In this document: positions 36,019 through 58,999 of the stretch, piece after piece
Position numbering within the stretch: the first letter of the stretch is position 1
Layout: each line of letters opens with the position of its first letter
From: Deltaproteobacteria bacterium
Lineage (GTDB): Bacteria; Myxococcota_A; Polyangia; Haliangiales; Haliangiaceae
Direction of reading: 5' to 3'
DNA: 64,000 nt
Assembly (NCBI GenBank): GCA_021413675.1
Contig: JAIOQA010000156.1
Coordinates: 1 to 64,000 of the forward strand
Notes under the pieces: model-generated
Told to the model about the DNA's origin: nothing
Database searches by the model: none
Seen by the model: the letters and a program-made list of their open reading frames with translations, nothing else
Program-made: the position numbers and the translations under genes

Positions 36019-37539
36019 TCACCGCTGGCGCGCCAGGCGGCGTAGCAGGTCGCGATCGAGGCTGTCGCCGACCGCGGCGGCCAGCCGATCGTACTCGGCC
36101 TGGCGCGTCGGGATGCGCGCGACCCCGGGCGAGGCCAGGCCTTTTCGCCCGCGCAGGTAGCTCAGGAGGCTCGCGCGCACGCTCGCGTTCTCGAACAGGC
36201 CGTGGATCATCGTGCCGACGACTGCGCCCGTCGCGTCGATCGCGCCGTCGGCGACCTGGGTCGCGGCGCCGTTGCGCGTGGTGATCGCGAACGGCGAGCG
36301 GGCGGCGCCGCGCTGGGTGATCGCCCCCATGTGGATCTCGTAGCCGGTGAGCTCGTCGTCGCGATCCGCGGTGAGAAACGATCGCGCCGCGGCGCGCGCG
36401 CGGACCTGCGCGGTGATCTTCGCGGCGGTGAACCGGGTGGCGATCGGCAGGAGCCCGAGGCCCGCGACCCGCGCGATGTCGGACTCGACGCCGTCGGGAT
36501 CGTCGAGGACCTCGCCGAGCATCTGGCAGCCGCCGCAGATGCCGAGGACCGGCTCGCCGGCGCGGGCGCGCGCGACGATCACCTGATCGATCTCGCTGGC
36601 GCGCAGCCAGGCCAGATCGGCGGCGGTGCTCTTCGAGCCGGGCAGGATGACCAGATCGGCGCCCTGGACCTCGGCGGCGCGGTCCGCGAACCGGACGACC
36701 ACGCCGGGCTCGTGCTCGAGCGGCTCGACGTCGTCGTGGTTCGAGATCCGGGGCAGGCGGACCACCGCGATGTCGAGCTGATCGGCGCCCGGTCGGCGGC
36801 GCACCGCGCGGTCCTCGAGCGACACCGAGTCCTCGTCGGCGATGCGCAGGCGCGGCACGTGCGGCACGACGCCGAGCACCGGCACGCCGGTGCGCGCGGT
36901 GATGAAGTCGAGGCCGGGCTGGAGCAGCGCCAGGTCGCCGCGGAACTTGTTGACCACCAGCGCGGCGACGCGCGCGCGGTCCGCGGCCTCGAGCAGCTCC
37001 AGCGTGCCGACGAACGCCGCGAACACGCCGCCGCGATCGATGTCGCCGACCAGCAGCACCGGCGCGTCGGCGAGGTGGGCGATGCGCATGTTCACGATGT
37101 CGCGATCGCGCAGGTTGATCTCCGCCGGGCTGCCCGCGCCTTCGATGATGACCAGCTCGTGCGCGGTGCGCAGGCGGGTCAGCGCGCCGGCGATCGTGTC
37201 GAGCAACGCCGGCTTGTGGGCGTGGTAGTCGACCGCGCTCATGCTGCCGATGGGCTTGCCCATGACCACCACCTGCGACCGGCGATCGCCCTCGGGCTTG
37301 AGCAGGATCGGGTTCATATCGGCGGAGGGTTCGAGGCCGGCGGCCCCGGCCTGCACCGCCTGCGCGCGGCCGATCTCGAGGCCGTCGGCGGTGACCGCGG
37401 CGTTGAGCGCCATGTTCTGGGCCTTGAACGGGGCGACCCGCACGCCCTCGTTGCGGAACAGGCGGCACAGCGCGGTGACCAGCAGGCTCTTGCCGACCGA
37501 CGACGCGGTGCCCTGGATCATGATCGTGGGTGCGAGCAT
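36019..37539 (-). CDS. cobQ: Cobyric acid synthase CobQ (CbiP)
   Basis: A 506-residue ATP- and glutamine-dependent amidase that amidates positions b, d, e and g of adenosyl-cobyrinic diamide. The N-terminal P-loop domain has GTASSVGKS and APFKAQNMALNA; the C-terminal class I-like glutaminase has the nucleophile Cys in GICGGCQMLG and the late His in HGLFEN. Full length for the family. It is the last gene of the cobalamin operon and its start lies 22 bases inside the upstream decarboxylase gene. Confidence 0.95.
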   Translation of the reverse strand: MLAPTIMIQGTASSVGKSLLVTALCRLFRNEGVRVAPFKAQNMALNAAVTADGLEIGRAQAVQAGAAGLEPSADMNPILLKPEGDRRSQVVVMGKPIGSMSAVDYHAHKPALLDTIAGALTRLRTAHELVIIEGAGSPAEINLRDRDIVNMRIAHLADAPVLLVGDIDRGGVFAAFVGTLELLEAADRARVAALVVNKFRGDLALLQPGLDFITARTGVPVLGVVPHVPRLRIADEDSVSLEDRAVRRRPGADQLDIAVVRLPRISNHDDVEPLEHEPGVVVRFADRAAEVQGADLVILPGSKSTAADLAWLRASEIDQVIVARARAGEPVLGICGGCQMLGEVLDDPDGVESDIARVAGLGLLPIATRFTAAKITAQVRARAAARSFLTADRDDELTGYEIHMGAITQRGAARSPFAITTRNGAATQVADGAIDATGAVVGTMIHGLFENASVRASLLSYLRGRKGLASPGVARIPTRQAEYDRLAAAVGDSLDRDLLRRLARQR

Positions 37540-38576
37540 CCGAGCTCCTGGCGAAGGGCGGTGACGAGGCGGGCGCGATCCGCGGGCGGCCGCGCGGCGA
37601 TGCGAATGTAGCCGGGCAGGCCGAACGACGCGCAGTCGCGCACGAGCATCGCGTGGCGGGCGAGGCGTGCGCGCAGCGCGGTCGCGTCGGGCACGGACAC
37701 CAGCACGAACGGCGCGGTCGAGGGTGCCGGTATGAGGCCGAGGTCGCGGAGCGCGGTCACGAGCTCGGCGCGATCGTCGCGCAGGCGCAGGCGGCTGGCG
37801 TCGACGAAGGCGCGCGAGCTCAGCGCGGCGCGCGCGGCGGCCTGGGCCAGCGCGCTGGTCGACCACGCCGGACGCTGGGCCTCGATGCGCGCGACGAGGG
37901 CAGGGGCGGCGATCAGGTAGCCGACGCGCACGCCCGCGAGAGCGTGATCCTTGGTGAGCGAGCGGACCCGGATCACGTTGGCGGGCATCGCGACGGTCGC
38001 ATCCTCGGCGTGATCGGCGAGGGACAGGAACGACTGATCGAGGACGATCACGGTGTCGGGACATGTGGCGGCCCACGCCGCGACCTCGTCGGCGCGGACG
38101 GTGGCGCCGGTCGGCGTGCTGGGCGTGCAGAGATAGACCAGCCGCGCGTCGCCGAGGTGTCGCGCGATCGCGGCCAGGTCGATCTGGAAGCGATCCGCGG
38201 CGGCGCGCCACTCGCGGATCCGCGCGCCCAGCGCGATCGCGGCGGTGCGCAGCTCGGAGAACGTGGGCTCGGCGATCAGCGCGGTGTCGCCAGGGCGCAG
38301 GACCGCGCGCGCGACCGCCCAGAGCAGCTCGGCGGCGCCGTTGCCGAGGACGAGCTGCTCCGGGGGCACACCGACGAGCGGCGCCATCGCGATGCGGGTC
38401 GCGTGGCTGGTCGGATCGGGGTAGCGATCGAGCGCGGCCGCGCGGATCGCCGCGACCACGGTCGGGCAGGGGCCGTACGGGTTGGTGCTGACGCTGAAAT
38501 CGAGGACGTGCGCCGGGTCGAGGCCGAGGGCCCGCAGCTCGGCGTCGCGGGGGCCGCCGTGGACGCGATCGGTCAT
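37518..38576 (-). CDS. cobD: Threonine-phosphate decarboxylase, CobD/CobC type
   Basis: A 352-residue PLP enzyme of the HisC-like aminotransferase fold. The N-terminus DFSVSTNPYGPCP, the central TPTGATV and the Schiff-base lysine segment SLTKDHALAGVRVGY are visible. In a cobalamin operon this is L-threonine-O-3-phosphate decarboxylase, supplying (R)-1-aminopropan-2-ol phosphate for the nucleotide loop. A histidinol-phosphate aminotransferase would be the alternative but the context argues against it. Two bases separate it from cbiB. Confidence 0.88.
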   Translation of the reverse strand: MTDRVHGGPRDAELRALGLDPAHVLDFSVSTNPYGPCPTVVAAIRAAALDRYPDPTSHATRIAMAPLVGVPPEQLVLGNGAAELLWAVARAVLRPGDTALIAEPTFSELRTAAIALGARIREWRAAADRFQIDLAAIARHLGDARLVYLCTPSTPTGATVRADEVAAWAATCPDTVIVLDQSFLSLADHAEDATVAMPANVIRVRSLTKDHALAGVRVGYLIAAPALVARIEAQRPAWSTSALAQAAARAALSSRAFVDASRLRLRDDRAELVTALRDLGLIPAPSTAPFVLVSVPDATALRARLARHAMLVRDCASFGLPGYIRIAARPPADRARLVTALRQELGCSHPRS

Positions 38577-38578
38577 GG

Positions 38579-39520
38579 TCAGAGCCCCCGCGCGAGCACC
38601 GCGGCGAGGGCGATCGCGGCGGCCGAGAGCGCGGCGCGATGCACGATGCGCCAGGCGTGATCGATCGTGCTCGCGGTGAGCGGCGCGCCCGGATCGCCGA
38701 GCCGGTAGTGGCCGGGCTTGACTAGCTGCACGCCGAGGAGGCCGGCCATGGTCGCCATCGGACGTCCGGCGTTCGGACTCGCGGTCGCGCCGGCGTCCCG
38801 CCGCCAGATCGCCCAGCCGCGGCGCGCGTCGGCTCCGGACAGCGCGCCCGCGACGAGCAGCAGCGCCGCGGTCAGCCGCGCGGGCACGAGGTTGAGCAGA
38901 TCGTCGAGACGCGCCGACGCCTTGCCGAGGTACTCGTAGCGGCCGCGATAGCCCAGGCGCGCGTCGAGCGTGTTCACCGCGCGGTAGCCGAGCGCGCCGG
39001 GCAGGCCGAACAGCGCGTAGTAGAACAGCGGCGCGACCACGCTGTCGGAGGCGTTCTCGGCGACCGACTCGACCGCGGCGGCGGCCAGCTCGGGTCCATC
39101 GAGCCCGCGCGGATCGCGGCTGCACAGGCTGCGGAGCGCGTCGCGGGCGGCGGGGAGATCGTCCCTGGCGAGCGCGTCGCGCACGGCGAACGCGGCGTGG
39201 CCCAGCGCGCGGATCGCGAACGACGAGGTCAGGAGCCAGATCGCGAGCAGGAACGCGAGCGGCGACGGAGCTGCGGATGCCACCGCCGCGCCCAGCCCGA
39301 TGAACGCGAGCGGCACCGCGAGCGCGATCGCGGCCCCGGCGCCGAGCTGGCGGAGCGGGCCCCGGCGCGGCGCCCGACGCTCGCAGGCGGCGATCATCCG
39401 GCCCATCCAGACGACCGGGTGGAGCGCGATCGGCGGCTCGCCCCAGGCGAGGTCGATCGCGAGTGCCGCGGCCAGCGCGAGCGCGGCGAGCCCGTGATCG
39501 GTGAGCGCAGCGACGATCAT
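38579..39520 (-). CDS. cbiB: Adenosylcobinamide-phosphate synthase CbiB (CobD)
   Basis: A 313-residue integral membrane protein joining aminopropanol phosphate to adenosylcobyric acid. Family segments include [10 protein letters not shown] near residue 34, [30 protein letters not shown], and [19 protein letters not shown]. About five membrane helices are predicted. Start overlaps the cobU stop (ATGA). Confidence 0.95.
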
Positions 39521-40065
39521 CGGAGCGGGCGTGCGAGCGCGACCGGCGCCGGGTGGATGCGCAGGATCGCGCCGAGCATCGCGATATCGACCTCGTCGGC
39601 GATCGCGGCGAGGCGCTGGTGCGCGATGCCGCAGACGTCGCGGAACGCGCGGCCCAGCGGCGACGGCGGCACGACGCCCATGCCGACCTCGTTGGTCACC
39701 AGGATCGCGTGGCAGGCGCGGCGCGCGAGCACCGCGACCAGATCATCGACGCGCCGGAGGATCGGCGCGGGCGCGGCGTCGATCAGCAGCAGGTTCGACA
39801 GCCACAGCGTCAGGCAGTCGACGACCACGACGTCGACGTCGCGCAGCGCGGCGATCGCCTCGGGCACGGCGAGCGGCTCCTCGATCGTCGCGAAGTCGGG
39901 CCCGCGCTCGCGCCGGTGCTGCGCGATCCGGTCGCGCATCTCGTCGTCGAAGGCCTGGGCGGTGGCGAGGAAGGCTCGGCGCGGTCCGAGCTCGCGCGCG
40001 CGCTCGAGGGCGAAGGCGCTCTTGCCCGAGCGCACGCCGCCGCCGATCACGATCACGCGGTTCAT
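39517..40065 (-). CDS. cobU: Adenosylcobinamide kinase/guanylyltransferase CobU
   Basis: A 182-residue bifunctional enzyme that phosphorylates adenosylcobinamide and then transfers GMP. P-loop GGVRSGKS, the GTP/His region ([14 protein letters not shown]) and [11 protein letters not shown] are all present. Translationally coupled to cbiZ upstream and cbiB downstream by four-base overlaps. Cobalamin-5-phosphate synthase (CobS), the next enzyme, is not in this window. Confidence 0.95.
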
Positions 40066-40799
40066 CGCCCGAGGCTCCGGGCGCGCTCGTCCTGCCACGC
40101 CGCGACGCCGCGGCGCGTGGCGTCGTGGACCGACGCGCCGATCACGTGGCCGATCGCGGTGTGCTTGCCGGCGTAGGCCGCGCCGCGCGGTCGATCGGGC
40201 GCGGCGATCACGATGCAGTCCGTGCCGGTGCCCGAGGCGGGCAGCCCGCTGCGCTGGCTCGCGACGCCGGCCTCGCGCACCACCAGCGCGCGCGCCTCGG
40301 CGGCGAGCGCCAGGGCCTCGAGCAGGGCGTTGTCGGTGAGCGGCGTCGAGAGCTGGCAGAGGGTGTTGATCGTGCCGATGCGCGCGGATGCCCCCGGTGG
40401 ATCGCCGGCGCGGAGCGCGTTGCCCAGCCCCACGGTGGTGATGCACCGCGCGCGGACGTCCTGGTACGCGACCGCGTGCTCGACGTAGGCATCGAGGTCG
40501 CGGCTGGTGAGCAGGCCGACCGCGCCGGAGCATCCAGCGCTGGCGAGCTGATCCGCGAGGTAGCGCCGCGCGTCGACGGGCGGTCGCAGATCGGCGTCGC
40601 AGACGCGCAGCCACGCGACGGTGTCGGCCCGGCGCAGGCCGCCGCCGACGATCGCCCAGCTCGCGAGACGATGGGGCGCGCCGAGGTGGACGAAGAGCCA
40701 GCGGCCGTCGCGGCGCACGCCTGCTGCGGGCGTCACGTGCGATGCAGCGTTCGCCCGCGTCATCGCATCACCCATCGGCTCACTCATCGGATCACTCAT
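40062..40799 (-). CDS. cbiZ: Adenosylcobinamide amidohydrolase CbiZ
   Basis: A 245-residue enzyme that cleaves adenosylcobinamide or pseudocobalamin precursors to adenosylcobyric acid, a salvage reaction. Family segments: TSRDLDAYVEHAV, TTVGLGNALRAGDPP, INTLCQLSTPLTDNALLEA, and ASGTGTDCIVIAAP. The N-terminus is a micro-repeat (MSDPMSEPMGDAM) that offers four in-frame ATG codons; the first overlaps the cbiA stop and is used here. Having CbiZ inside a complete de novo operon suggests remodelling of imported corrinoids. Confidence 0.92.
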   Translation of the reverse strand: MSDPMSEPMGDAMTRANAASHVTPAAGVRRDGRWLFVHLGAPHRLASWAIVGGGLRRADTVAWLRVCDADLRPPVDARRYLADQLASAGCSGAVGLLTSRDLDAYVEHAVAYQDVRARCITTVGLGNALRAGDPPGASARIGTINTLCQLSTPLTDNALLEALALAAEARALVVREAGVASQRSGLPASGTGTDCIVIAAPDRPRGAAYAGKHTAIGHVIGASVHDATRRGVAAWQDERARSLGR

Positions 40800-42160
40800 C
40801 GCGCGCCCTCCGCGCAGCGCTCGACGAAGCCCTGGGCGACCAGCGGGTTCGAGGCCCAGTGCGCGTGGACGTACGAGCCCAGCACGCTGCCGACCTGGTA
40901 GCCCTCGCGCACCACCTCGCCGCTGCGTCGGCGGCGCACGCTGTACGCGCGATCGATCGCTCCGGACAGGTCGCGCAGCTCCGAGTAGCGGAACTGGTGG
41001 CCGCGGAAGCGCAGGCCGGGCGGGCCGAGCACCGAGCGCGCCTGGGTCTCGACCTCCACGTAGCCGAGGGCCTGGAGCCGCTCGTTCATGACCGCCTCGG
41101 CATCGACGAGTCCCACCATCGGGTGGCGGGCACCGTCGAGCGTGACGATCGCGCGCGCGAGGTACATGAGCCCGCCGCACTCGGCGTAGATCGGCCGGCC
41201 CGCGCCGGCGAACGCGCTGATCGCCGCGCGCATGGAGCCGTTCGCCGCAAGCGCAGCCGCGTGGACCTCGGGGTATCCGCCGCCGAGGTAGAGCCCGTCG
41301 ACCGCGGGCAGCGCGCGATCGTGGATCGGCGAGAACCGGACCAGCTCGGCGCCGAGCGCCTCGAGGCGCCGCAGGTTATCGGCGTAGTAGAAGTGGAAGG
41401 CCTCGTCGTGCGCGAGCCCGATGCGGCAGCGTCGCGGCGCGGTGATGGCCGAGGGCACCTCGATTTCGGGCAACGGCGGCGCGGCGCGCGCGATCGCGAC
41501 CATCGCGTCGACATCGATCCACGCGGCGACCCGCTCGCCCCAGGCCGCGAACAGCGCCTCGGGCACCGCGTCGCGCTCGGCGGTGCGCAGGCCGAGGTGG
41601 CGATCGGGGAACCCCAGCGCCGGCTCCTTCGGCAACCCGCCGAGCACGGGCGGCGAGCCACCGGTGGCGGTGCGCAGGATCTCGAGGTGGCCGCGGCTGC
41701 CGACGCGATTGCCGATCACGCCGGCGAGCTGCAGGTCCGGATCGAAGCTCGCGAACCCGCGGGCCAGCGCCGCGATGCTGCGGGCCATGCCGCTCGCGTC
41801 GCACACGAGGACGACCGGCACGCCCAGCCACTTCGCGATCTCGGCGGTCGAGCCGGCGTCGCCGACCGGCGAGGCGCCGTCGTAGAGGCCCATCACGCCC
41901 TCGAGGAGCGCGATGTCGGCGCCGCGCGCGGCGTGGGCGAAGGTCGCGCGCACCGCGTCCTGACCCATCATCCAGCCGTCGAGGTTGTGGCACGGGCCGG
42001 CGATCGCGCGGGCGTGATACGTGGGGTCGAGGTAGTCGGGGCCGCACTTGAACAGCGCGACGCGCAGGCCGCGCGCCCGCAGCGCGCGCGCGAGGCCCAC
42101 CGTGATCGTGGTCTTGCCGACGCCGCTGGCGGTCCCGGCGATGACGAGGCGCGGGATCAT
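40796..42160 (-). CDS. cbiA: Cobyrinic acid a,c-diamide synthase CbiA/CobB
   Basis: A 454-residue glutamine- and ATP-dependent amidase. N-terminal dethiobiotin-synthetase-like domain with GTASGVGKTT, FKCGPDYLDP and LLEGVMGLYDG; C-terminal glutaminase with Cys in YAECGGLMYL. It amidates the a and c acetates of (cobalt) cobyrinic acid. Absence of CobN/S/T and presence of CbiX/D/G make the cobalt-containing form the likely substrate. Shares one base with the upstream gene stop. Confidence 0.95.
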   Translation of the reverse strand: MIPRLVIAGTASGVGKTTITVGLARALRARGLRVALFKCGPDYLDPTYHARAIAGPCHNLDGWMMGQDAVRATFAHAARGADIALLEGVMGLYDGASPVGDAGSTAEIAKWLGVPVVLVCDASGMARSIAALARGFASFDPDLQLAGVIGNRVGSRGHLEILRTATGGSPPVLGGLPKEPALGFPDRHLGLRTAERDAVPEALFAAWGERVAAWIDVDAMVAIARAAPPLPEIEVPSAITAPRRCRIGLAHDEAFHFYYADNLRRLEALGAELVRFSPIHDRALPAVDGLYLGGGYPEVHAAALAANGSMRAAISAFAGAGRPIYAECGGLMYLARAIVTLDGARHPMVGLVDAEAVMNERLQALGYVEVETQARSVLGPPGLRFRGHQFRYSELRDLSGAIDRAYSVRRRRSGEVVREGYQVGSVLGSYVHAHWASNPLVAQGFVERCAEGAR

Positions 42161-43398
42161 CAGTAATCGATCCCCAGCGCGGCCTTGTGGCCCTGCTGGA
42201 ACGGGTGCTTGGGCGAGGTCATCTCGGTCACCAGATCGGCAGCGGCGCACAGCGCCTCGGGCGCCTGACGGCCGGTGATGACCACATGCACGTGCGGCGG
42301 TCGCGTTGCGAGCGCGGCGATGACCTCGGCGCCGTCGAGGAAGCCGTAGTTGATCGCGTAGGTCAGCTCGTCGAGGACGACCAGCGAATGATCGCCAGCG
42401 GCGATCAGCTGCTTCGATCGCTCCCACGCCGCGATCGCCGCGTTGCGATCCCGCGACAGGTCATCGCTGTCCCACGTGAACCCCTGGCCCATGACCAGGA
42501 AGGTCAGCTCGGGCAGGGTCTCGGCGAACATGCGCTCGCCGGTCTTCCACTTGCCCTTGATGAACTGCACGACCGCGACGGGCAGGCCGCGGCCCATCGC
42601 GCGGAACACCAGGCCCAGCGCCGCGGTGGTCTTGCCCTTGCCCTGGCCGGTGTAGACCAGCAGCAGGCCGCGACCGGTGGGCGGCGCGGCCGGCGCCGGG
42701 CGCGGCGCGACCTCGTGCGCGATCGCGGCCGCGAGCGCTGGCGCCGCGGGCTGGCCCCACGCGCCGCCGAAGACCAGCTCGCCCAGCGGCAGCCGCGGCA
42801 GCCAGCCCGCGGTCTCGAGCGTCGGGCGATCGGGAAACGAATCGACGTGGCCCAGGCACAGGTACGCGATCGGCGCGACCCGCGCGGGGATGCCGAGGAT
42901 CGCGCGCAGCGCCTGCGGCTCGAGGATGCTGACCCAGCCGACGCCGATGCCCTCGGCGCGCGCGGCGAGCCAGAGGTTCTGGATCGCGCCGCAGGTGCTG
43001 TACGCCGAGGTCTCCGGCATCGTATGGCGCCCGATCACCGCGGGGCCCGCGCGATCGGGATCGCAGGTCACGCAGATGTTCAGCGGCGCGTCGAGGATGC
43101 CTTCGAGCTTGAAGCCCAGGTACGCCGCCCTGCGCGCATCGTCGAAGGCCTCGGCGGCGCGCAGCCGCTCGGCCTGGACGTGGGCGTGCACCGCTTCGCG
43201 AGTCGCGCGATCCTCGACGACGATGAAGCTCCACGGCTGCGAGAAGCCGACCGACCCCGCGTGGTGCGCCGCGGAGAGGATGCGCGCCAGCACCTCGGGC
43301 GCGATCGGATCGGGGCGGAACGCGCGGATGTCGCGGCGGCCGGCGATGGCCTCGTAGACGCCGCGGCGCCACGCGGCGGGGAAGCGCAGATCGGTCAT
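42160..43398 (-). CDS. Fused BluB (dimethylbenzimidazole synthase) and CobO/BtuR (corrinoid adenosyltransferase)
   Basis: A 412-residue two-domain enzyme. Residues 1-205 are BluB-like nitroreductase fold (YEAIAGRRDIRAFRPDPI, GFSQPWSFIVVED, AAYLGFKLEGILDAPLNI), which in known members destroys FMNH2 with O2 to make 5,6-dimethylbenzimidazole. A short Ala/Pro linker leads to residues 235-412, a CobO/CobA-type ATP:corrinoid adenosyltransferase with P-loop VYTGQGKGKTTAALG, VVQFIKGKWKTGE and VLDELTYAINYG. The two activities are normally separate proteins. One base overlap with cbiA and a four-base overlap with the upstream fusion. Confidence 0.9.
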   Translation of the reverse strand: MTDLRFPAAWRRGVYEAIAGRRDIRAFRPDPIAPEVLARILSAAHHAGSVGFSQPWSFIVVEDRATREAVHAHVQAERLRAAEAFDDARRAAYLGFKLEGILDAPLNICVTCDPDRAGPAVIGRHTMPETSAYSTCGAIQNLWLAARAEGIGVGWVSILEPQALRAILGIPARVAPIAYLCLGHVDSFPDRPTLETAGWLPRLPLGELVFGGAWGQPAAPALAAAIAHEVAPRPAPAAPPTGRGLLLVYTGQGKGKTTAALGLVFRAMGRGLPVAVVQFIKGKWKTGERMFAETLPELTFLVMGQGFTWDSDDLSRDRNAAIAAWERSKQLIAAGDHSLVVLDELTYAINYGFLDGAEVIAALATRPPHVHVVITGRQAPEALCAAADLVTEMTSPKHPFQQGHKAALGIDY

Positions 43399-45389
43399 GG
43401 GGCTCCCAGGGTGGCCAGCGCGCACGCGATCAGCGCGGCCGGGGTGTCGTCCGCGGCCCGGACGATGTGGCGCGCGCCGTGCGCGCGCGCCGCGGCCTCG
43501 GTGGCGGGCCCCATCGCCACCATCGGGACCGCGTGCAGCGCGTCGGGCGCGCCGGCGAGCAGGTTGCGCGCCGCCGACGAGCTGGGCAGCACGACCAGAT
43601 CGATCGGCGGCAGCGGCGGCCGCACCTCCGCGAGGTGCTGGCGATACGCGACGACGGTGTCGACCTCCGCGCCGACGGCGGTCAGCTCGTTCACGAGCGC
43701 CGGGCGGCCGGCGTCCGAGGTCACGAGCAGGAACCGGCGACCGGCGAAGGTCGCGGCGTGCTCGGCGAGCGCCTCGGCGCAGGCGCCGCGCAGGGCGAGC
43801 TGCGGCGTGATCCCGAGGTCGGCCAGCGCGCCGGCGGCGCCGGTGCCGATCGCGATGACCGGCCGCGCGCCCAGATCGGCGGCGATCGCGCGCGCGCCGG
43901 CCGCGCAGCCGATGAGGAGTGCGGCGTGATCTGCATCAGGCGTGATCGCGAGCGACGCGGGCACGACCGTGATCGCCGGGGCCTCGATCACATCCGCGCC
44001 GAGGCCGCGCAGCGCCCGCGCGATCGCCGACGGCTCGGGCCGCGCGCGCGCCACGATCAGCCGGCGGCCGTCGAGGGCGCGATCGCGCTCGAACCACGCG
44101 ATCGTGTCGCGCAGCCCGACGACCTCGCCCACGAGGATCAGCGCTGGCACCGCGGGATCGACGTCCGCGATCCGCGCTGCGAGCGTGGCCAGCGTCCCGA
44201 CGATGACCCGCTGCGCCGGCGTGCTCGCCGCGCCGATGTACGCGGCCGGCGTGGTCGGCGCGCGGCCGCCTTCGACCAGCCGCGCGAGGTTCGCGGCGAG
44301 GCCGTGGGCCGCCATGTACATCGCGATCGTGCCGGTGCCCGCGGCCAGCGCGGCCCAGTCGGTGCGCGAGGTGGCACCGCCGCTGTCGTGGCCGCTCACG
44401 AACGTCACGTCGGAGGCGAGCGCGCGGTGTGTGAGCGGGATGCCGGCACACGCCGCCGCGCCCAGCGCCGCCGAGATGCCGGGCACGATCGTGAACGGGA
44501 TGCCGGCCTCGGTCAGCTCCTCGGCCTCCTCGCCGCCGCGGCCGAAGATCATCGGATCGCCGGCCTTGAGCCGGACCACGGTCTTGCCGGCGCGCGCGCG
44601 CTCGAGCACCGCCGGGTGCAGGCGGTAGGTCGTCGGGCCGCCGCCGTGCCGGCGCCCGACCGGCAACAGCTCGGCGCGCGGGTTCGCCAGCGCGAGGATC
44701 GCCGGCGGTACCAGCGCGTCGTGCGCGATCACGTCGGCGGTGCGCAGGAGCTCGGCGGCGCGCACGGTGAGGAGCCCCGGATCGCCCGGGCCCGCGCCCA
44801 CGAGGTGGACGATGCCGCCGCGCTCGGGCGCCGGGTCGAGCACGCGCAGCGCCCACGCGAAGCGATCGGCCCGCGAGGTGCAGTCCTCGGGCAGGTGATG
44901 CACGACCCGCGGGTCGGCGTGGCGGCGCAAGAGCCCGTCGAGGATGTGCTGGTAGCGCAGCTGCAGGAACGGCCGCGGCGGGCGCACGCCGTCGCGCACG
45001 TAGGGCAGGACGCCGGCGGGCAGGACGAGGATCGCGTCGTAGCGCGCCAGATGCTCGACCGGTCCGCGCAACAGCTCGGGCGGGGCGTCCCACCCCTCGC
45101 CGTCGACGCAGCCGTGGTAGAGCGCGTACGCCGCGAAGTCGATGCAGGCGTTGTCGGCGATGAACGCGGGCGTCGCGCGCTCGCGTGCGGCGCGGCCGCG
45201 CCACATCGCGAGCAGGATCGCCTGCGCCTCGTCGGTCGGCAGCGCGGCGAGCGACCGCCGCGTGCGCACCAGGTGCGCGCGCATCTCCTCCTCGAACAGC
45301 GGCAGCTCGAGCTCGGCCGCGAGCATCGTCGCGAGCGTGGTCTTGCCCACCCCCGCCGCGCCCGCGATCCCGATGCGCCTAGCCCGCAT
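43395..45389 (-). CDS. Triple fusion: P-loop NTPase, uroporphyrinogen-III C-methyltransferase (CobA), uroporphyrinogen-III synthase (HemD)
   Basis: A 664-residue protein. Residues 1-188 form a P-loop NTPase/kinase (GAAGVGKTT at 10-18, later RYDAILVLPAG and a basic lid) resembling NadR-type AAA ATPases. Residues 192-435 are a SUMT domain (VHLVGAGPGDPGLLTVRAAE, VVRLKAGDPMIFGRGGEE, VPGISAALGAAACAGIPLTHR) that makes precorrin-2. Residues 440-664 are a HemD domain (RRLIVARARPEPSAIARALR, LVVLPSSSAARNLLAG). CobA-HemD fusions are known; the NTPase head is unexpected. The start lies 11 bases inside cobM. The function of the head, perhaps gating substrate entry, is unknown. Confidence 0.88.
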   Translation of the reverse strand: MRARRIGIAGAAGVGKTTLATMLAAELELPLFEEEMRAHLVRTRRSLAALPTDEAQAILLAMWRGRAARERATPAFIADNACIDFAAYALYHGCVDGEGWDAPPELLRGPVEHLARYDAILVLPAGVLPYVRDGVRPPRPFLQLRYQHILDGLLRRHADPRVVHHLPEDCTSRADRFAWALRVLDPAPERGGIVHLVGAGPGDPGLLTVRAAELLRTADVIAHDALVPPAILALANPRAELLPVGRRHGGGPTTYRLHPAVLERARAGKTVVRLKAGDPMIFGRGGEEAEELTEAGIPFTIVPGISAALGAAACAGIPLTHRALASDVTFVSGHDSGGATSRTDWAALAAGTGTIAMYMAAHGLAANLARLVEGGRAPTTPAAYIGAASTPAQRVIVGTLATLAARIADVDPAVPALILVGEVVGLRDTIAWFERDRALDGRRLIVARARPEPSAIARALRGLGADVIEAPAITVVPASLAITPDADHAALLIGCAAGARAIAADLGARPVIAIGTGAAGALADLGITPQLALRGACAEALAEHAATFAGRRFLLVTSDAGRPALVNELTAVGAEVDTVVAYRQHLAEVRPPLPPIDLVVLPSSSAARNLLAGAPDALHAVPMVAMGPATEAAARAHGARHIVRAADDTPAALIACALATLGAP

Positions 45390-46164
45390 CGCGCGCGCCG
45401 TCCTTGCGCGCGGTGCCGCGGCGGAAGCGATGGGTGAACGCCGGGTCGTAGAGCTTCGAGGCCGCGAAGTCGGTCGCGGTCAGCACCCGGCCGACGAGGA
45501 TCATCGACTGCGACCGGATCTTCGCCGCCTTCACCTGCGCGGCGATGTCGGCCAGCGTGCCGCGCACGATCTGCTGATCGGGGCAGGTCGCCTTGTGCAC
45601 GACCGCGACCGGGCAATCGGCGCCGTACGCAGGGATCAGCTCCTCGACCACGTCGGCGAGCAGCGTGATGCTGAGGAACAGCGCGAGGGTCGCGCCGTGG
45701 CGGGCGAGGTCGGCGAGCTTCTCGCGCTCGGGCATCGGCGTCCGGCCCTCGGCGCGGGTCAGGATCACCGTCTGGCTGAGCTCGGGCAGCGTGAGCTCGC
45801 GGCCGAGCACCGCCGCCGCCGCGGTGAACGACGACACGCCGGGCACGATCTCGTAGGCGATGCCGAGCTCGTCCATGCGCCGCATCTGCTCGCCGGTCGA
45901 GCCGAACACCGAGGGATCGCCGGTGTGGACGCGGGCGACGTCGTGATCGGCGTCGCGCGCGGCGACGATCACGTCGAGGATCTGCGCGAGGGTCATCGCC
46001 GCGGAGTCGAGGACCTGCGCGTCCGGACGGGCGCGGGCCAGCACCTCGCGCGGCACCAGCGAGCCGGTGTAGAGGACGACCGGGCAGCGGGCGATGAGCG
46101 CCGCGCCGCGCAGCGTGAGCAGCTCCGGGTCGCCCGGGCCCGCACCGATGATGTAGACGCGCAT
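45379..46164 (-). CDS. cobM: Precorrin-4 / cobalt-precorrin-4 C11-methyltransferase CobM (CbiF)
   Basis: A 261-residue tetrapyrrole methylase. VYIIGAGPGDPELLTLRGAA at the N-terminus, LYTGSLVPREVL, RVHTGDPSVFGSTGEQM, and YEIVPGVSSFTAAAAVLGREL are hallmarks of CobM/CbiF. The C-terminal YDPAFTHRFR is typical of the subgroup. Its gene follows a hypothetical gene after 23 bases, one of the few gaps in this operon. Confidence 0.94.
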   Translation of the reverse strand: MRVYIIGAGPGDPELLTLRGAALIARCPVVLYTGSLVPREVLARARPDAQVLDSAAMTLAQILDVIVAARDADHDVARVHTGDPSVFGSTGEQMRRMDELGIAYEIVPGVSSFTAAAAVLGRELTLPELSQTVILTRAEGRTPMPEREKLADLARHGATLALFLSITLLADVVEELIPAYGADCPVAVVHKATCPDQQIVRGTLADIAAQVKAAKIRSQSMILVGRVLTATDFAASKLYDPAFTHRFRRGTARKDGARDAG

Positions 46165-46187
46165 GGATTCCTCGAGAGTGGGAGGGG

Positions 46188-46601
46188 CTAGCTGCAGCGC
46201 AGGACCGCGTCGCGGACGATCTGCCAGACCGGCGCGGGCAGCTCCGCGAGCCAGCGGCCCGGGATGGCGGTGGGGACGGGCGCGTCGTCGTCGTCGCGCT
46301 GGCCGGTGGCGAGCCGCCACAGCCGTTCGCTGATCGACCCGGTGCGCGGGATGACGAAGGAATGGACCAGGAGACGCGCGAGCCCCTCGCCCTCGACATC
46401 GAGGGTCAGCCACGGCGGCGCGAGGTCCGGCGGCCGGACAACATGGAGATGGATGAATGGCGTGGTCAGCGCGTCGATCGCGCCCGGCGGCGCGAACCCC
46501 GCCGCCTCCCAGTCGCACGGCACCTTGGGGTTGCCGACGAGGTAGTACGCACCGTCGGTGTCGGCGAGGATCGCGCCGGCCAGGCGGCCGACCCGCGCCA
46601 T
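46188..46601 (-). CDS. Conserved-looking protein of unknown function within the cobalamin operon
   Basis: A 137-residue soluble protein, MARVGRLAGAILADTDGAYYL at the start, with PPWLTLDVEGEGLARLLVHSF and a C-terminal half rich in Asp and Trp (PGRWLAELPAPVWQIVRDAV). No signal, membrane helix or cofactor motif is seen. It is joined by a one-base overlap (TGATG) to cobJ and lies between cobJ and cobM, so a role in C-ring or corrin handling, or an accessory to these methylases, is possible. I do not recognise a family. Confidence 0.75.
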   Translation of the reverse strand: MARVGRLAGAILADTDGAYYLVGNPKVPCDWEAAGFAPPGAIDALTTPFIHLHVVRPPDLAPPWLTLDVEGEGLARLLVHSFVIPRTGSISERLWRLATGQRDDDDAPVPTAIPGRWLAELPAPVWQIVRDAVLRCS

Positions 46602-47443
46602 CACGCCACCTCCGGGCCGGCCGCGGGCGGCGGATCGACGACCAGCGAGAACCCGGCCCGCTGCCCGGCGTGGATCGCGCCGTCGGCGTCGTACTTGTTG
46701 CCGTAGCCGCGCGGCGTGACCATGTAGCCCTCGAACGCGTAGGTCTGCGACGAGCCGACCAGCACGGTCGTCAGCATCCCGATCTCGTAGTCGAGGAAGT
46801 GATCGACGTCGGTGACGACCGCGTCCTGGAGCTTGCGGTAGGCGCTCTTGACCAGCGCGACCGGGGTCGTGCCGCTGCGGTGGCGCCGGATGATCGCCTG
46901 CGCCGTCACGATCTGGCGCGTGCGCCGGCCGCTGGCGGGGTTGTACAGGCCGATCACGAAGTCCGCCGCAGCGGCGGCTTCGATGCGGCGCTCGATCACC
47001 GGCCATGGCGTGAGCAGGTCCGAGAGCGAGATCGCGCAGAAGTCGTGGACCAGCGGTGCGCCGACCAGCGAGCCGCACGAGTTGAGCGCGGTCATGCCGG
47101 GGATCAAGCGCAGCTCCGGCGAGGCGCCGCGGGTCCAGCCGAGGTCGCGCAGCACCTGGAACACGAGGCCGGCCATGCCGTACACGCCCGGATCGCCCGA
47201 CGAGATCAGCGCGACCTTCGCGCCGTCGCGCGCGCGCTCGACCGCGGCCCTGGCCCGGCCGATCTCCTCGGTCATGCCGGTGCGGATGACCTCCTTGCCG
47301 ACGATCAGCTCGCGGACGAGCTTGATGTACGTGGTGTAGCCGACGATGACGTCGGCGTCGGCGATCGCGGCCAGCGCCGCGGGGGTCGTGTGGGCGTGGG
47401 CGCCGGGCCCGATGCCGACGACGTAGAGGATGCCGTGGCTCAT
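46601..47443 (-). CDS. cobJ: Precorrin-3B / cobalt-factor III C17-methyltransferase CobJ (CbiH)
   Basis: A 280-residue methylase that also drives ring contraction. Hallmarks: LYVVGIGPGAHAHTTPAAL, VIVGYTTYIKLVREL, ISSGDPGVYGMAGLVFQ, IPGMTALNSCGSLVGAPLVHDF, and LYNPASGRRTRQI. C-terminal GYMVTPRGYGNKY is typical. Unfused and of normal length. Starts four bases inside cbiG's stop region (ATGA) and shares one base with the following hypothetical gene. Confidence 0.95.
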   Translation of the reverse strand: MSHGILYVVGIGPGAHAHTTPAALAAIADADVIVGYTTYIKLVRELIVGKEVIRTGMTEEIGRARAAVERARDGAKVALISSGDPGVYGMAGLVFQVLRDLGWTRGASPELRLIPGMTALNSCGSLVGAPLVHDFCAISLSDLLTPWPVIERRIEAAAAADFVIGLYNPASGRRTRQIVTAQAIIRRHRSGTTPVALVKSAYRKLQDAVVTDVDHFLDYEIGMLTTVLVGSSQTYAFEGYMVTPRGYGNKYDADGAIHAGQRAGFSLVVDPPPAAGPEVA

Positions 47444-48573
47444 GCGACTCCAGGGGATAGGGCGCGGCGCGGGTGCGGGATGCGCGCGACCGCCACGGTC
47501 ATCGAGCGCCCGGCGCCGGGCTCGGTGTAGATCTGCTTGGTGACCGCGAGTGCGCGCGCGCCGGCCGCGCGCAGCGCCGCGGGCTCGCACACCCCGCGGG
47601 TGCCGACGTGGCGCTGCACGACGGTCGACGGCGTCTCGATGCCGGCGGTGGCGTCGAGCTCGTCCGCGGTGAAGGTCATCAGCGGCCAGCGGTGGCGCGC
47701 GCACAGCGCGAGGAACGCGGGCTCACTGGCCTTGAGATCGATCGTGGCGATCGCCTGGATCGATCGCGGCGACAGCTGGTGGCGGGCCAGCACGGTCATG
47801 AGCCCACGCTCGACCATCGCCGGATCCGCGCCGCGATCGCAGCCCAGGCCCACGACCAGGCTGCGCGGCCGGTAGATGACCGCGTTGGCCCAGTGCGCGG
47901 GGTGCGAGTCGCGCAGCTCGCGATCGGTCGCGATCAGCAGGATCTCGGCGGCGGCAGGATCGACGTCGTCGAGCGCGGTCGTGTAGCGCACGCCCTCGGG
48001 CAGCGTCCGGTCCTCGGGCCAGAAGCCGGGCTCGCCGGCCTCCTGCACGAACACCACGGGCGCCGCGTTGACCACCGCGGCGCAGCCGCGCGTGACGTTG
48101 CGGTCCGGATCGTCGAGCTCCCAGCCCAGCTCGCGGCCGAGGATGTCGACGGTCAGCGTGCCGCGGACATCGGACGCGGTCGTGATGACGGGTACCGCCG
48201 CGAGCGCGGCCGCGACCCGCGCGGTCAGCTCGTTGCCGCGGCCGACGTGGCCCGACAGCACGCAGATCGCGAAGCGCGCGTCGTCGTCGACGCAGACCAC
48301 CGCCGGATCGACCTTCTTGTCGCGCAGGAGCGGCGCGACCATGCGCACCACCGCGCCGACGCTGATCACGAAGACGTGGCAGTCGTACTGGCCGAAGAGT
48401 TCGACGAGCCACGGCCCCATCGGCAACGGCATCGGACGGGCCTCGGGCGGCGCCAGCGCGCGGACCTTGTCGGAGGCGAAGAGGTGGGCCGCGGGGAACG
48501 CCGCGAGCAGGCGCTGTGCGATGCCGACGCCGTGGCGGGTGATCGCGTGGATCGCCATGGGCGCGCGGGTCAT
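47440..48573 (-). CDS. cbiG: Cobalt-precorrin-5A hydrolase CbiG
   Basis: A 377-residue protein that opens the lactone of cobalt-precorrin-5A in the anaerobic pathway. The CbiG N-terminal and middle domains (HVFVISVGAVVRMVAPLL, CVLSGHVGRGNELT) are followed by the C-terminal domain (VVGLGCDRGADPAMVERGL, TIDLKASEPAFLAL). The ATG at 48573 overlaps the cobI stop; an internal ATG at 48558 is the only alternative. Its presence together with CbiD marks the early-cobalt-insertion route. Confidence 0.94.
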   Translation of the reverse strand: MTRAPMAIHAITRHGVGIAQRLLAAFPAAHLFASDKVRALAPPEARPMPLPMGPWLVELFGQYDCHVFVISVGAVVRMVAPLLRDKKVDPAVVCVDDDARFAICVLSGHVGRGNELTARVAAALAAVPVITTASDVRGTLTVDILGRELGWELDDPDRNVTRGCAAVVNAAPVVFVQEAGEPGFWPEDRTLPEGVRYTTALDDVDPAAAEILLIATDRELRDSHPAHWANAVIYRPRSLVVGLGCDRGADPAMVERGLMTVLARHQLSPRSIQAIATIDLKASEPAFLALCARHRWPLMTFTADELDATAGIETPSTVVQRHVGTRGVCEPAALRAAGARALAVTKQIYTEPGAGRSMTVAVARIPHPRRALSPGVA

Positions 48574-49331
48574 GCGCAGATGCTCCGCAGCGGGGTGCCG
48601 GCGAGCACGCCGCTGTGCTCCTTGCGCGACACGATGATCATCGCGAAGCAGTCGCCGCGCGCCGCCGGCACCTCGCGCAGGTCGCGAAGGATGCGCTGGT
48701 CGGCCATCGTCGCGCGCGAGACGTAGACCGCGCGATCGAGCAGCCCGACCCGCGTGAGCGTGGCGATGATGTGGGGCAGCTCGCCTCCGAGCTTCATCAG
48801 CACGACGGTGTCGAACGCGGCGAGCAGCGCCTCGAGATCGCCGAGGCCATAGGTCGCGGGGATGATCGCGATCCGTTCCTGGCCATCGGCGAGGGGCACG
48901 CCGGTCACCGACGGCACCGCGGTGATCGAGGTGATGCCGGGCACGACCTCGACCTTGACGCCGGGCCAGCGCGAGGGGGCCGCCTGCGCGAGATAGATGA
49001 AGCTCGAGAACAGCGACGGATCGCCCTCGGTGGCGAACGCGACGTCGCGGCCCGCCTCGAGGTGTGCGCCGATCGCGGCCAGCGCGGCATCCCATGCCGG
49101 GCGCAGCCGCGCCGGGTCCTTGCTCATCGGGAAGGTGAGGAACAGCCGGAGCTGATCGGCGACCGCGCCGAGGGTCGGGCGCAGGATCTGCCAGGCCATC
49201 GACGCACCGTGATCGTTGCTGCGCGGCAGCGCGAGCACCGGCGCGCGGCGCAGCACGTCGAGCGCGCGCAGCGTGATCAAGTCCGGTGCGCCGGGGCCAA
49301 CCCCGACGCCGTAGAGCGTGCCGTAGTTCAT
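48570..49331 (-). CDS. cobI: Precorrin-2 / cobalt-factor II C20-methyltransferase CobI (CbiL)
   Basis: A 253-residue tetrapyrrole methylase with GTLYGVGVGPGAPDLITLRAL, FATEGDPSLFSSFIYL, VVPGITSITAVPSVTGVPLA and VVLMKLGGELP, typical of the C20 enzyme. Joined to cobL and cbiG by four-base overlaps. In this CbiX/CbiD context the substrate is probably cobalt-factor II. Confidence 0.94.
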   Translation of the reverse strand: MNYGTLYGVGVGPGAPDLITLRALDVLRRAPVLALPRSNDHGASMAWQILRPTLGAVADQLRLFLTFPMSKDPARLRPAWDAALAAIGAHLEAGRDVAFATEGDPSLFSSFIYLAQAAPSRWPGVKVEVVPGITSITAVPSVTGVPLADGQERIAIIPATYGLGDLEALLAAFDTVVLMKLGGELPHIIATLTRVGLLDRAVYVSRATMADQRILRDLREVPAARGDCFAMIIVSRKEHSGVLAGTPLRSICA

Positions 49332-50590
49332 CGCGCCTCCGGTACCGGGCGCGATGGCGCGGTGACCGCGAAGATCTGGATCGGGTTGAGCGCCTCGTAG
49401 CGCAGGTAGCGCGCGAGCGGCTCGGCCCGCGCGATCTGCACCAGCGTGACGTCGGGTACCAGGTCGCGGCCGCGCAGCGCCTGGTAGACCTCGGCGGCGT
49501 TCTCGAGCGTGATCGCGTTGACCACCAGCCGGCCGCCGGGCCGCAGCCGCGCGAGCGCAACGTCGACGATCGCGGTCATGCTGCCCTTGCTGCCGCCGAT
49601 GAAGACCGCGTCGGGAGCGGGCAGGTCGGCGAGCGCGTCCGGGGCGAGCCCGGGGATGACGTGGACGTTGTCGACGCCGAGCTCGCGGGCGTTGGCGCGG
49701 CACAGCGCGACGCCCTCGGGATCGACCTCGATCGCGTAGGTGCGGCCCTCGGGCGCGAGCATCGCCGCCTCGATCGCGATCGAGCCCGAGCCCGCGCCGA
49801 CGTCCCACACCACGCTGTCGCGGCGCAGCGCCATCGCGCCGAGGGTGAGGAGCCGGATCTCGCGCTTGGTGATGAGGCCCTTCTTCGGCGTGCGCCGTGC
49901 GAACGCGTCCTCGTGCAGGAACGGGATCGTCGGCGGCGCGCGCCAGGCGGTGTCGGTCCGGACCAGGATCAGCACGTTCAGCGGATCGACGTCGGAGACC
50001 AGGGCAAGCTCGGCGAGCGGCAGCTGGCGGACGCGCTCGTCGGCGCCGCCCAGGCGCTCGCACACCCACGCGGTCCACGCCGCCTCGCCGTACTCGATCA
50101 TCTGCGCGGCGATCCGCGGCGGCGAGTGCTCGTCGTCGGTGAGGAGCGCGACCTTGGCCAGGCGTGCGAGTCGGGTCACGAGGCCGTCGAGGGAGCGGCC
50201 GTGCACCGACAGCAGCGCCGCGTCGCCCCAGTCGAGGCCGGCGCGGGCGAAGGCGAGCTGCATCGAGCTCGGCTGCGGGATGATCTCCACGTGGGGCGCG
50301 CCGAGGCGCGCGATCACCCGCCGGCCAACGCCGAAGAACAGCGGGTCGCCCGAGGCCAGGATGCAGACGTTCTGATCCTCGGCCAGCGCGGCGACGCGAT
50401 CGAGGATCGCGGTCAGGCCGCCGCGCAGGGCGATGCGCTCACCCGCGAACTGCGGGAAGAAGGCGAGATGGCGCTCGCCGCCGACCAGCACCGCGGCGCG
50501 ACTGACCGCGCCCACCGCGCGGCTGGTCAGGCCGAGGCAGCCGTCGTCGCCGATGCCGACGAGCGTGACCGCGCGCGTCGGGGCGTTCAT
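49328..50590 (-). CDS. cobL: Precorrin-6B C5,15-methyltransferase/decarboxylase CobL (CbiE-CbiT fusion)
   Basis: A 420-residue fusion. Residues 1-200 are the CbiE-type methylase (LVGIGDDGCLGLTSRA, VGGERHLAFFP, ASGDPLFFGVGRR). Residues 215-420 are the CbiT-type Rossmann methyltransferase/decarboxylase (GLITKREIRLLTLG, WDVGAGSGSIAIEAA, IGGSKGSMTAI). The fused arrangement is typical of the aerobic set and of many anaerobic-type pathways. Start overlaps the cbiC stop. Confidence 0.95.
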   Translation of the reverse strand: MNAPTRAVTLVGIGDDGCLGLTSRAVGAVSRAAVLVGGERHLAFFPQFAGERIALRGGLTAILDRVAALAEDQNVCILASGDPLFFGVGRRVIARLGAPHVEIIPQPSSMQLAFARAGLDWGDAALLSVHGRSLDGLVTRLARLAKVALLTDDEHSPPRIAAQMIEYGEAAWTAWVCERLGGADERVRQLPLAELALVSDVDPLNVLILVRTDTAWRAPPTIPFLHEDAFARRTPKKGLITKREIRLLTLGAMALRRDSVVWDVGAGSGSIAIEAAMLAPEGRTYAIEVDPEGVALCRANARELGVDNVHVIPGLAPDALADLPAPDAVFIGGSKGSMTAIVDVALARLRPGGRLVVNAITLENAAEVYQALRGRDLVPDVTLVQIARAEPLARYLRYEALNPIQIFAVTAPSRPVPEAR

Positions 50591-51234
50591 GCGGCCTCCT
50601 GCGACAAGAGGAGCAGCGCGTGGATGATCGCGACCGCGATCGGGCTGCCGCCCTTGCGGCCGCGCGCCACGATGTGGGGCGCGGACAGCGCGAGCACTGC
50701 CTCCTTGGATTCCGCCGCGGACACGAACCCGACCGGCACGCCGATGATCAGCGCCGGGCGGGCGCCCTCGCGCTCGATCAGGCGCACGACCTCGAGCAGC
50801 GCGGTCGGCGCGTTGCCGATCGCGACGATCGCGCCGTCGAGCACGCCGGCGCGGTGGGCCTTGCGCATCGCCTCGATCGCGCGCGTGGTGTTCGCCTGGC
50901 GCGCGGTCGCGATCACGTCGTCATCGGAGATGTTGGCGTGGATCGCGCAGCCGTAGGCGTCGAGGCGATCCTGGTTGAGTCCCGCCGCGATCATCCGGAC
51001 GTCGACGACGATCGGGCAACCGCCGCGCAGCGCCGCGATGCCTGACGCCACGGCGTCGGACGACAGGCGCAGGAGCGACTTGAACTCGAAGTCGGCGGTC
51101 GCGTGGATCACCCGGCGCACGACCTGCCATTCACGGGGGCCGAAGTCGTGGGCGCCGGCCTCGGCGTCGACGATCGCGAAGGAGCCGTCCTCGATGCTGC
51201 GGCCGAGCGCGGTCAGCTGGCGCATGTCGTTCAT
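50587..51234 (-). CDS. cbiC: Precorrin-8X methylmutase CbiC (CobH)
   Basis: A 215-residue isomerase moving the C11 methyl to C12. The conserved catalytic His is in VRRVIHATADFEF, and GNAPTALLEVVRLIEREGA and GVPVGFVSAAESKEAVLA are family marks. Full length. Overlaps cbiD upstream and cobL downstream by four bases each. Confidence 0.95.
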   Translation of the reverse strand: MNDMRQLTALGRSIEDGSFAIVDAEAGAHDFGPREWQVVRRVIHATADFEFKSLLRLSSDAVASGIAALRGGCPIVVDVRMIAAGLNQDRLDAYGCAIHANISDDDVIATARQANTTRAIEAMRKAHRAGVLDGAIVAIGNAPTALLEVVRLIEREGARPALIIGVPVGFVSAAESKEAVLALSAPHIVARGRKGGSPIAVAIIHALLLLSQEAA

Positions 51235-52328
51235 GGCGCGTGCTCCGGGAACTGCCCGAGCACGCCGCCGCCGAAATCGACGAGGCGCGCGTGCACGGCG
51301 AGGGGGCCGCCGGCGTGGCGCGCGCACTGCGCGACCACCTTGCGGCAGATGAGGGTCGTGATGCCGACCAGGCCGGCGTCCTTGCACAGCTCGAGCACGT
51401 GGCGCGCGGTGTTGGCGGTGCGGACCGCGGCGACCAGCGGCGCGTCGCCGCCGAGCTCGGCGGTGAGGTCGGCGAGGGCGTCGAGATCGACCTCGGAGCC
51501 GGCCACGTGGGTCTGCATCCGGCCGTTCGCCATCTTCGACAGCTTCCCGATCATCCCGACGATCGTGACGAGCGCGATGCTGCGCCGCGCGCACGCCTTG
51601 AGCCCCACGCCGATGAAGTCGCCGACCTGGATGAACGCCGATTGGGGCAGGTGCGGCAGCATCGCCATCGCGTACTGCTCGGACTTGCCGCCGGTGGTCA
51701 GCACCAGCTCGCGCAGGCCGGCGTGCGCGGCGACGTCGATCGCCTGCACGACGCTCGCCTTGTAGGCCGCGGTCGAGTACGGCGTGACGATGCCCGAGGT
51801 CCCGAGGATCGACAGCCCGCCGATCAGGCCGAGGCGCGCGTTGGTGGTCTGCAGCGCGCGGGTCTCGCCGTCGGGCACGCTGATCGTCACGATCGCCCCG
51901 CCGGACGCGAGCTCCTCGCTCACCATCTCGGTGATGTTGCGTCGCGGCACCGGGTTGATCGCCGGGCCGCCGACCTCGAGCCCGAGCCCGGCCTTGGTCA
52001 CGGTCGCGACGCCGGTGCCGCCGCGGATCTCCACGCCTGCGGTGGCGCGCAGCTCGACCTCGGCGACAAGCTCGGCGCCGTGGGTGCAGTCGGGGTCGTC
52101 GCCCGCGTCCTTGATGATGCTGCAAAGCGCGCGCGCGCCGATCCGCTCGCACCGCGCCAGCGGGAACGTGACCTTCGCCCGGTTGGGCAGCGTGGTCTCG
52201 ATCTCAGCGAGCACGGTGTCCCTCACCAGGCAGCGGGTCGCCGCCTTCGCCGCCGCGGCGGCGCACGCGCCGGTCGTGAAGCCGGTGCGCAGGCCCTGCT
52301 TGTCGCGAGGCGGGACGCGCGCTTCCAT
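51231..52328 (-). CDS. cbiD: Cobalt-precorrin-5B C1-methyltransferase CbiD
   Basis: A 365-residue enzyme unique to the anaerobic pathway. RTGFTTGACAAAAAKAA at the N-terminus, NPVPRRNITEMV, LGTSGIVTPYSTAAYKASV and QVGDFIGVGLKACARR identify it. It is followed at four-base overlap by cbiC. It lies nine bases after the FNR-type reductase gene. Confidence 0.96.
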   Translation of the reverse strand: MEARVPPRDKQGLRTGFTTGACAAAAAKAATRCLVRDTVLAEIETTLPNRAKVTFPLARCERIGARALCSIIKDAGDDPDCTHGAELVAEVELRATAGVEIRGGTGVATVTKAGLGLEVGGPAINPVPRRNITEMVSEELASGGAIVTISVPDGETRALQTTNARLGLIGGLSILGTSGIVTPYSTAAYKASVVQAIDVAAHAGLRELVLTTGGKSEQYAMAMLPHLPQSAFIQVGDFIGVGLKACARRSIALVTIVGMIGKLSKMANGRMQTHVAGSEVDLDALADLTAELGGDAPLVAAVRTANTARHVLELCKDAGLVGITTLICRKVVAQCARHAGGPLAVHARLVDFGGGVLGQFPEHAP

Positions 52329-52337
52329 CGGGGCCGG

Positions 52338-53446: not shown

Positions 53447-53457
53447 GGGCGTGACTC

Positions 53458-58730: not shown

Positions 58731-58796
58731 CACGTGCCCGGCGCATTCTTCCCGGGCAAGCGAACTCCCCGTTTCCACGCGGAGAGAACAGCGTCT

Positions 58797-58975
58797 GCTC
58801 GGGTAGGTCTCCTGGCTCGTGACGATGGAATCGCTTCCGTGCTCCCCCTGTCTTCCCCGGAGTCGCCGCGCTGGCGTTCTCCGAGTGACGTATCGGGGTT
58901 GCTCCTCACATACAGTGGCGGGACCGCGCCGGTCTTTCACCGGCTTCCCTGTTATGCCCTCGCGGGCACCCGAGC
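58797..58975 (-). ncRNA. Cobalamin riboswitch aptamer
   Basis: The minus strand shows the cobalamin aptamer core in order. P1 is closed by GCTCGGG at the 5' side (58969-58975) and CCCGAGC at the 3' side (58797-58803). Inside, CAGGGAAGCCGGTG and GCGGTCCCGCCACTGTA are the conserved core, followed by the variable P-region and the B12 box CCAGGAGACCTACC near 58802-58816. Binding of adenosylcobalamin should favour the downstream terminator hairpin. It precedes the 24-gene operon and so should shut down synthesis and transport when cobalamin is plentiful. Confidence 0.95.
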
Positions 58976-58999
58976 GACTATTCGATTGTCAGAGTCCGA

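Follow-up and report, generated by a model that had tools for sequence, protein, structure and literature searches.

What does a P-loop NTPase domain do in front of CobA-HemD, in the middle of an operon for vitamin B12 synthesis? The question is raised by a gene in the 64,000-nt window that we analyzed from contig JAIOQA010000156.1 of a Deltaproteobacteria bacterium (Haliangiaceae; assembly GCA_021413675.1). The initial annotation, made from the sequence, had described its product as a NadR-like NTPase head with an intact GAAGVGKTT loop, followed by CobA and HemD. ORF calling and translation showed one uninterrupted ORF that opens with ATG and encodes 664 aa, and the domain matches within it bore out the proposed order (Table 1): Pfam AAA_28 (PF13521) covered residues 5–160 of the head with 51.2 bits against a gathering cut-off of 27, NCBIfam cobA_cysG_Cterm (TIGR01469) began at residue 192 with 254 bits against an equivalog-domain cut-off of 185, Pfam TP_methylase covered residues 194–404 with 173 bits, and Pfam HEM4 (PF02602) covered residues 455–655 with 96 bits against a cut-off of 27.5. 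The P-loop is present as described. An AF2 model of the full-length protein showed three separate domains, with a low-confidence linker at residues 187–189 and an unreliable placement of the domains relative to each other (pTM 0.48).

The initial annotation had also allowed that translation truly starts near residue 190 and that the head belongs to a separate gene. This was ruled out by the junction itself: no in-frame ATG lies near residue 190, and no stop codon occurs in any frame between approximately residues 141 and 219, so that the head cannot be a gene terminating ahead of CobA, nor could a single indel have masked its stop codon. Nearest to the head/CobA junction, the possible in-frame starts are two GTG codons (183 and 197), for which inspection by eye showed no obvious ribosome-binding site, and codon-position GC stays in phase across the whole ORF and the junction (GC3 ~0.95). 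On these sequence grounds, a simple frameshift artefact is an unlikely origin of the fusion ORF. The fusion is real in the assembly, which comprises 564 contigs.

Table 1. Features of the fusion gene and its surroundings (positions within the window)
Feature	Position	Strand	Basis
B12 operon, btuF to cbiP	36019..57144	-	ORFs and family matches
Cobalamin riboswitch, upstream of the operon	58785..58988	-	RF00174, 101 bits
CbiX with C-terminal ferredoxin domain	53458-54645	-	
Ferredoxin-reductase-like gene	52338-53090	-	FAD_binding_6
138-aa ORF between cobM and cobJ	46188-46604	-	
ORF with cobM/cbiF, directly upstream of the fusion gene	45379..46518	-	TIGR01465, 345 bits
Fusion gene, NadR/AAA_28-like head + CobA + HemD	43395..45389	-	one ORF, 664 aa
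Head domain, residues 1-185, P-loop kinase-like	44835..45389	-	Pfam AAA_28, AF2 model, family alignment
Walker A GAAGVGKTT, residues 10-18	45336..45362	-	translation; Lys invariant in family alignment
Short linker, residues 186-191, low confidence in full-length model	44817..44834	-	AF2 pLDDT < 50 at 187-189
CobA, uroporphyrinogen-III C-methyltransferase, residues 192-427	44109..44816	-	TIGR01469
HemD, uroporphyrinogen-III synthase, residues 455-655	43425..44027	-	Pfam HEM4
bluB-cobO fusion, directly downstream of the fusion gene	42160..43398	-	TIGR02476, 264 bits; CobO, 230 bits
cbiZ	40062-40799	-	

The operon that contains the fusion gene is a complete anaerobic-type B12 pathway set behind a cobalamin riboswitch. 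Its genes follow each other in the order btuF-btuC-btuD, cbiX-ferredoxin, an FAD oxidoreductase gene, cbiD, cbiC, cobL, cobI, cbiG, cobJ, an orphan ORF and cobM, and then the fusion gene, bluB-cobO, cbiA, cbiZ, cobU, cbiB, cobD and cbiP; cbiD, cobL, cobI, cobJ, cbiA, cbiP and btuC were identified from sequence by eye or through searches in which they served as queries. The fusion gene overlaps its neighbors on both sides, by 11 nt with the end of cobM at its ATG and by 4 nt with the start of bluB at its stop codon. The bluB-cobO ORF joins BluB (DMB synthase) to CobO (corrinoid adenosyltransferase), and the cobaltochelatase CbiX carries a C-terminal thioredoxin-like 2Fe-2S ferredoxin domain. 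No CbiJ/CobK was recognized among the operon genes scanned, and a ferredoxin-reductase-like gene stands at the place expected for this precorrin-6A reductase. The short ORF between cobM and cobJ had no Pfam or NCBIfam match, and CbiZ, a corrinoid-remodelling/salvage amidohydrolase, is encoded within what is a de novo synthesis operon. No threonine kinase or CobC phosphatase was recognized in the operon, and CobT and CobS are encoded outside it, on contig C181 of the same genome. The hemC gene lies with hemA on a different contig of the host genome (C231), and the sole HemD detectable in that genome is the HemD of the fusion, with the reservation that HemD diverges fast and a second copy may be missed. 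Since the only HemD detected is part of a riboswitch-controlled fusion, the organism may rely on a B12-regulated gene to make heme.

The NTPase-CobA-HemD fusion was found in one genome only; it was absent from 29 other genomes of the family, from a class sample of 290 genomes and from a phylum sample of 379 genomes. CobA proteins from 22 of the 29 family genomes, some of them with HemD, aligned with the fusion protein only from approximately residue 135–192 onward, and two relatives from the same taxonomic family (L011 and L013) aligned over CobA and HemD at 39–42% identity and had no NTPase head. Residues 192–655 are an ordinary CobA-HemD pair, and it is the head that sets the protein apart from known CobA-HemD relatives. 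Head matches within the order were weak (E 1e-6 to 1e-3, 28–40% identity over part of the head), the one inspected more closely (L007) proved to be a generic AAA_28 protein with unrelated genes as neighbors, and the class sample contained no better match. With headless CobA in 22 genomes and only generic AAA_28-type weak matches, a family- or order-wide fusion was ruled out. No plasmid copies of the head were found. The pathway can do without the head, since relatives that lack it also have B12 genes.

Beyond the order, the head belongs to a small family that has not been described before. Strong matches (E ~1e-12 or better) occurred in 34 of the 379 phylum-sample genomes at 33–47% identity, all except the window's own in other classes, the nearest relative matching at E 7e-33. 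A database scan with an alignment of these relatives added heads from Planctomycetota, Binatota and Azospirillum-type Alphaproteobacteria, and searches of Alphaproteobacteria and of the order of Azospirillum (Azospirillales) yielded further ones. In a 26-row alignment, 24 columns were invariant, including G10, G15, K16 and T18 of the P-loop, E34, R37, D79, D84, and D133, G134 and R136 of the lid. Loss of the P-loop Lys in relatives, which would have spoken against a functional head, was not seen, and the conservation of this Lys, the acidic residue and the lid Arg across the alignment marks a real family. In a tree, a branch with support of 100/100 separated the window head and these relatives from generic AAA_28 proteins; the window head itself sits on a branch of length 2.07, compared with a median end branch of 0.22. 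It lacks several near-invariant residues of the family (S11A, G35E, H48A and R80N, the last removing the Arg of the DR[SAT] motif) and keeps the P-loop Lys, D79, E34, R37 and the lid DGVR.

Structure prediction agreed with the NadR-like fold assigned initially. The AF2 model of the head (pLDDT 88) retrieved NadR as the top Foldseek match (E 2e-6, TM 0.67–0.77), followed by thymidylate and deoxynucleoside kinases, and a search of the PDB with a head-family profile brought up NadR at E 1.4e-10, in an alignment where the P-loop, E..R, acidic and DG-R lid motifs coincide. The ribosylnicotinamide kinase domain of NadR (PF13521; PDB 6gye/6gyf/6gzo, 1lw7) shares the fold and the motifs align, but the head is only ~20% identical to it, has no adenylyltransferase domain, stands in another gene context and has motifs of its own, EGMR and DR[SAT]..DF..F; its score with the NadR model TIGR01526 is far below the equivalog cut-off (17.9 bits against 341). 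The thymidylate and deoxynucleoside kinases (TMK, dNK), the second-best folds, resemble the head in sequence around the P-loop only. The D-R-S motif of the head family is reminiscent of the DRY/ERS motif of TMK/dNK kinases, the Arg of which is missing from the window head; in NadR itself, aligned with the head family, the Walker B Asp is not followed by an Arg.

The gene company of the relatives points to B12 by a different route than the operon of the window does. The initial annotation had proposed a search for the head as a stand-alone gene in other cobalamin operons; none of the 29 phylum loci (within 1.5 kb) and none of the 23 database loci (within 10 kb) placed a head beside corrin-ring genes. 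Stand-alone and fused relatives instead accompany corrinoid uptake (btu) genes and a CobC-like phosphatase. At least 11 loci encode a histidine phosphatase with the head fused to its C-terminus; among NCBIfam models, this phosphatase fits the alpha-ribazole phosphatase CobC (TIGR03162) best, at 138–151 bits and below the equivalog cut-off of 162.9. All other-class head genomes of the phylum that we tested had this CobC-like phosphatase, fused or apart; genomes of family f51 encode head and phosphatase in separate genes. There (L149, L150), the phosphatase gene lies between genes that we take by eye to be birA-like and coaX-like (type III pantothenate kinase), and we found no B12 link around it and no B12 neighbors of the stand-alone heads. 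In Azospirillales, 16 of the 17 heads are divergent to btuF/btuC (12 loci) or btuB (4 loci), with a cobalamin riboswitch between head and btuB in all four of the latter, and genome G634 has the same riboswitch-btuB-btuFCD arrangement by its head. This synteny is probably one inherited event. On the head's other side, most Azospirillales loci (L104, L105, L164, L166, L169-L173 and others) carry a gene for a pentapeptide-repeat protein. No cobalamin riboswitch was found at the CobC-like-fused heads or the f51 heads.

The head also co-occurs with CobU. In the 379 phylum-sample genomes, 23 had both, 11 the head only, 20 CobU only and 325 neither, which corresponds to CobU in 23 of 34 genomes with the head and 20 of 345 without it (odds ratio 34, Fisher p 4e-17); these statistics ignore shared ancestry, and their p-values overstate the evidence. 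Counted by genus, the corresponding numbers were 13, 3, 14 and 206, and outside the window's own class, among genomes first met in the phylum-wide head search, they were 22, 11, 11 and 227. When 20 head carriers were tested for CobU, CobS, CobT, CbiB, CbiC and CbiP (E 1e-8), 13 had no match to CbiB, and among these G396, G298, G407, G345 and G360 kept CobU with CobS and/or CobT. No nucleotide-loop gene was found in genome G293 or in the MAGs G567 and G569; G293, estimated as 100% complete, has a phosphatase-head fusion and yet none of the six genes. The repeated presence of head relatives with B12-uptake and B12-finishing genes suggests that the head may be a kinase of the sugar or nucleoside type with a link to the metabolism of B12.

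Our preferred reading, to which we give a probability of roughly 40%, is that the head is a NadR/deoxynucleoside-kinase-fold domain from a family of riboside-type kinases that serve corrinoid metabolism, tethered in this genome to CobA-HemD. We favor a riboside-type kinase of the salvage or nucleotide-loop arm because of the fold, the retained ATP-site residues and the recurrent B12 company. The head would phosphorylate a small substrate of one of these arms, our best guess being alpha-ribazole, giving alpha-ribazole phosphate for CobS, or nicotinate riboside feeding CobT. Three points speak for alpha-ribazole: like nicotinamide riboside, it is a base-riboside, its phosphate is the substrate of CobS, and a CobC-type phosphatase acts after CobS (PMC7242693, PMC6461909). 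The joining to CobA-HemD would have put the head under the cobalamin riboswitch together with the entire pathway. CobA and HemD catalyze the first steps of the pathway, whereas the kinase would belong to another arm; what the fusion provides is therefore most likely tethering and stoichiometric co-expression rather than chemical coupling, a purely organizational role. For the earlier idea that the head couples nucleotide level to precorrin-2 formation, we found no support beyond the fusion itself. Several observations weigh against the riboside-kinase reading: the gene content of G293, the below-cut-off score of the partner phosphatase and its birA/coaX-like neighborhood in f51, a co-occurrence uncorrected for phylogeny and an Azospirillales synteny that probably reflects a single event, the lack of a close CobC-like partner in the host genome, and the long branch of a window copy that has lost S11, G35, H48 and R80.

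Some of the same observations would suit a kinase that acts on nucleosides or cofactors in general, without any particular tie to B12, and that came to be joined to CobA-HemD when a chance deletion removed a gene boundary. The carriers that have no nucleotide-loop genes, the f51 heads and phosphatases in their B12-free surroundings and the restriction of the fusion to one genome all fit, but the separate links to the CobC-like phosphatase, btu genes and CobU, and ATP-site residues conserved despite strong divergence, make such an accident rather unlikely in our view. The strong divergence of the window copy, with R80N and H48A, raises the possibility of a repurposed or non-catalytic domain. 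In that case the head, a diverged domain that binds ATP or a nucleotide, would have given up kinase activity and would regulate CobA-HemD or act as its assembly scaffold, as its branch length and the loss of near-invariant residues, G35 among them, could indicate. Against this stand the P-loop Lys, D79, E34, R37 and lid that it has kept, the example of NadR, which also does without an Arg after the Walker B Asp, and a full-length model with no confident packing of the head on CobA-HemD; we regard loss of kinase function as possible, if on the unlikely side. That the head is the operon's missing L-threonine kinase, standing in for PduX or BluE and providing the decarboxylase CobD, as well as CbiB, with L-threonine phosphate, strikes us as improbable. 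PduX and BluE would fill the same gap in the pathway, and PduX is a GHMP kinase with a fold that differs from that of the head. The operon does encode the threonine-phosphate decarboxylase and CbiB with no recognized threonine kinase, the step is an open gap, pduX being absent from the majority of verified cobamide producers (PMC6461909), and a switch to another substrate would agree with the long branch on which the window head sits. The many head carriers that have no CbiB match, some of which keep CobU with CobS and/or CobT, nevertheless argue against this function for the family; the closest folds are riboside and nucleoside kinases, and no Rhodobacterales-type BluE locus was recognized in the Alphaproteobacteria search, as judged by locus and not by BluE sequence. 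The initial annotation is partly borne out: domain order, intact P-loop and NadR-like fold hold, and threonine or aminopropanol as the substrate of a kinase is weakened by the many carriers with no CbiB match.

Returning to the riboside-kinase reading, we tentatively propose, with the odds somewhat against so specific a statement, that the head family is a previously unrecognized cobamide small-molecule kinase that in some lineages has acquired a CobC-like phosphatase as its fusion partner and here CobA-HemD. It could phosphorylate alpha-ribazole, as an enzyme with no relation to CblS, or could be the L-threonine kinase that is missing in the organism studied here. CblS is the alpha-ribazole kinase of Firmicutes (PMC6461909) and would catalyze the same reaction if alpha-ribazole is the substrate of the head; the two are likened by function, not by sequence. 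The protein combines known domain types in what is apparently a single-genome fusion, and its head family is linked to B12 by several lines. The fusion is a clean gene-fusion hint tying an unnamed family to the B12 pathway, in which steps without a known gene remain in most producers. This family, found with CobU, a CobC-like phosphatase, a corrinoid importer and once CobA-HemD, offers a concrete candidate, and one that is easy to test, for a missing step or a salvage route.
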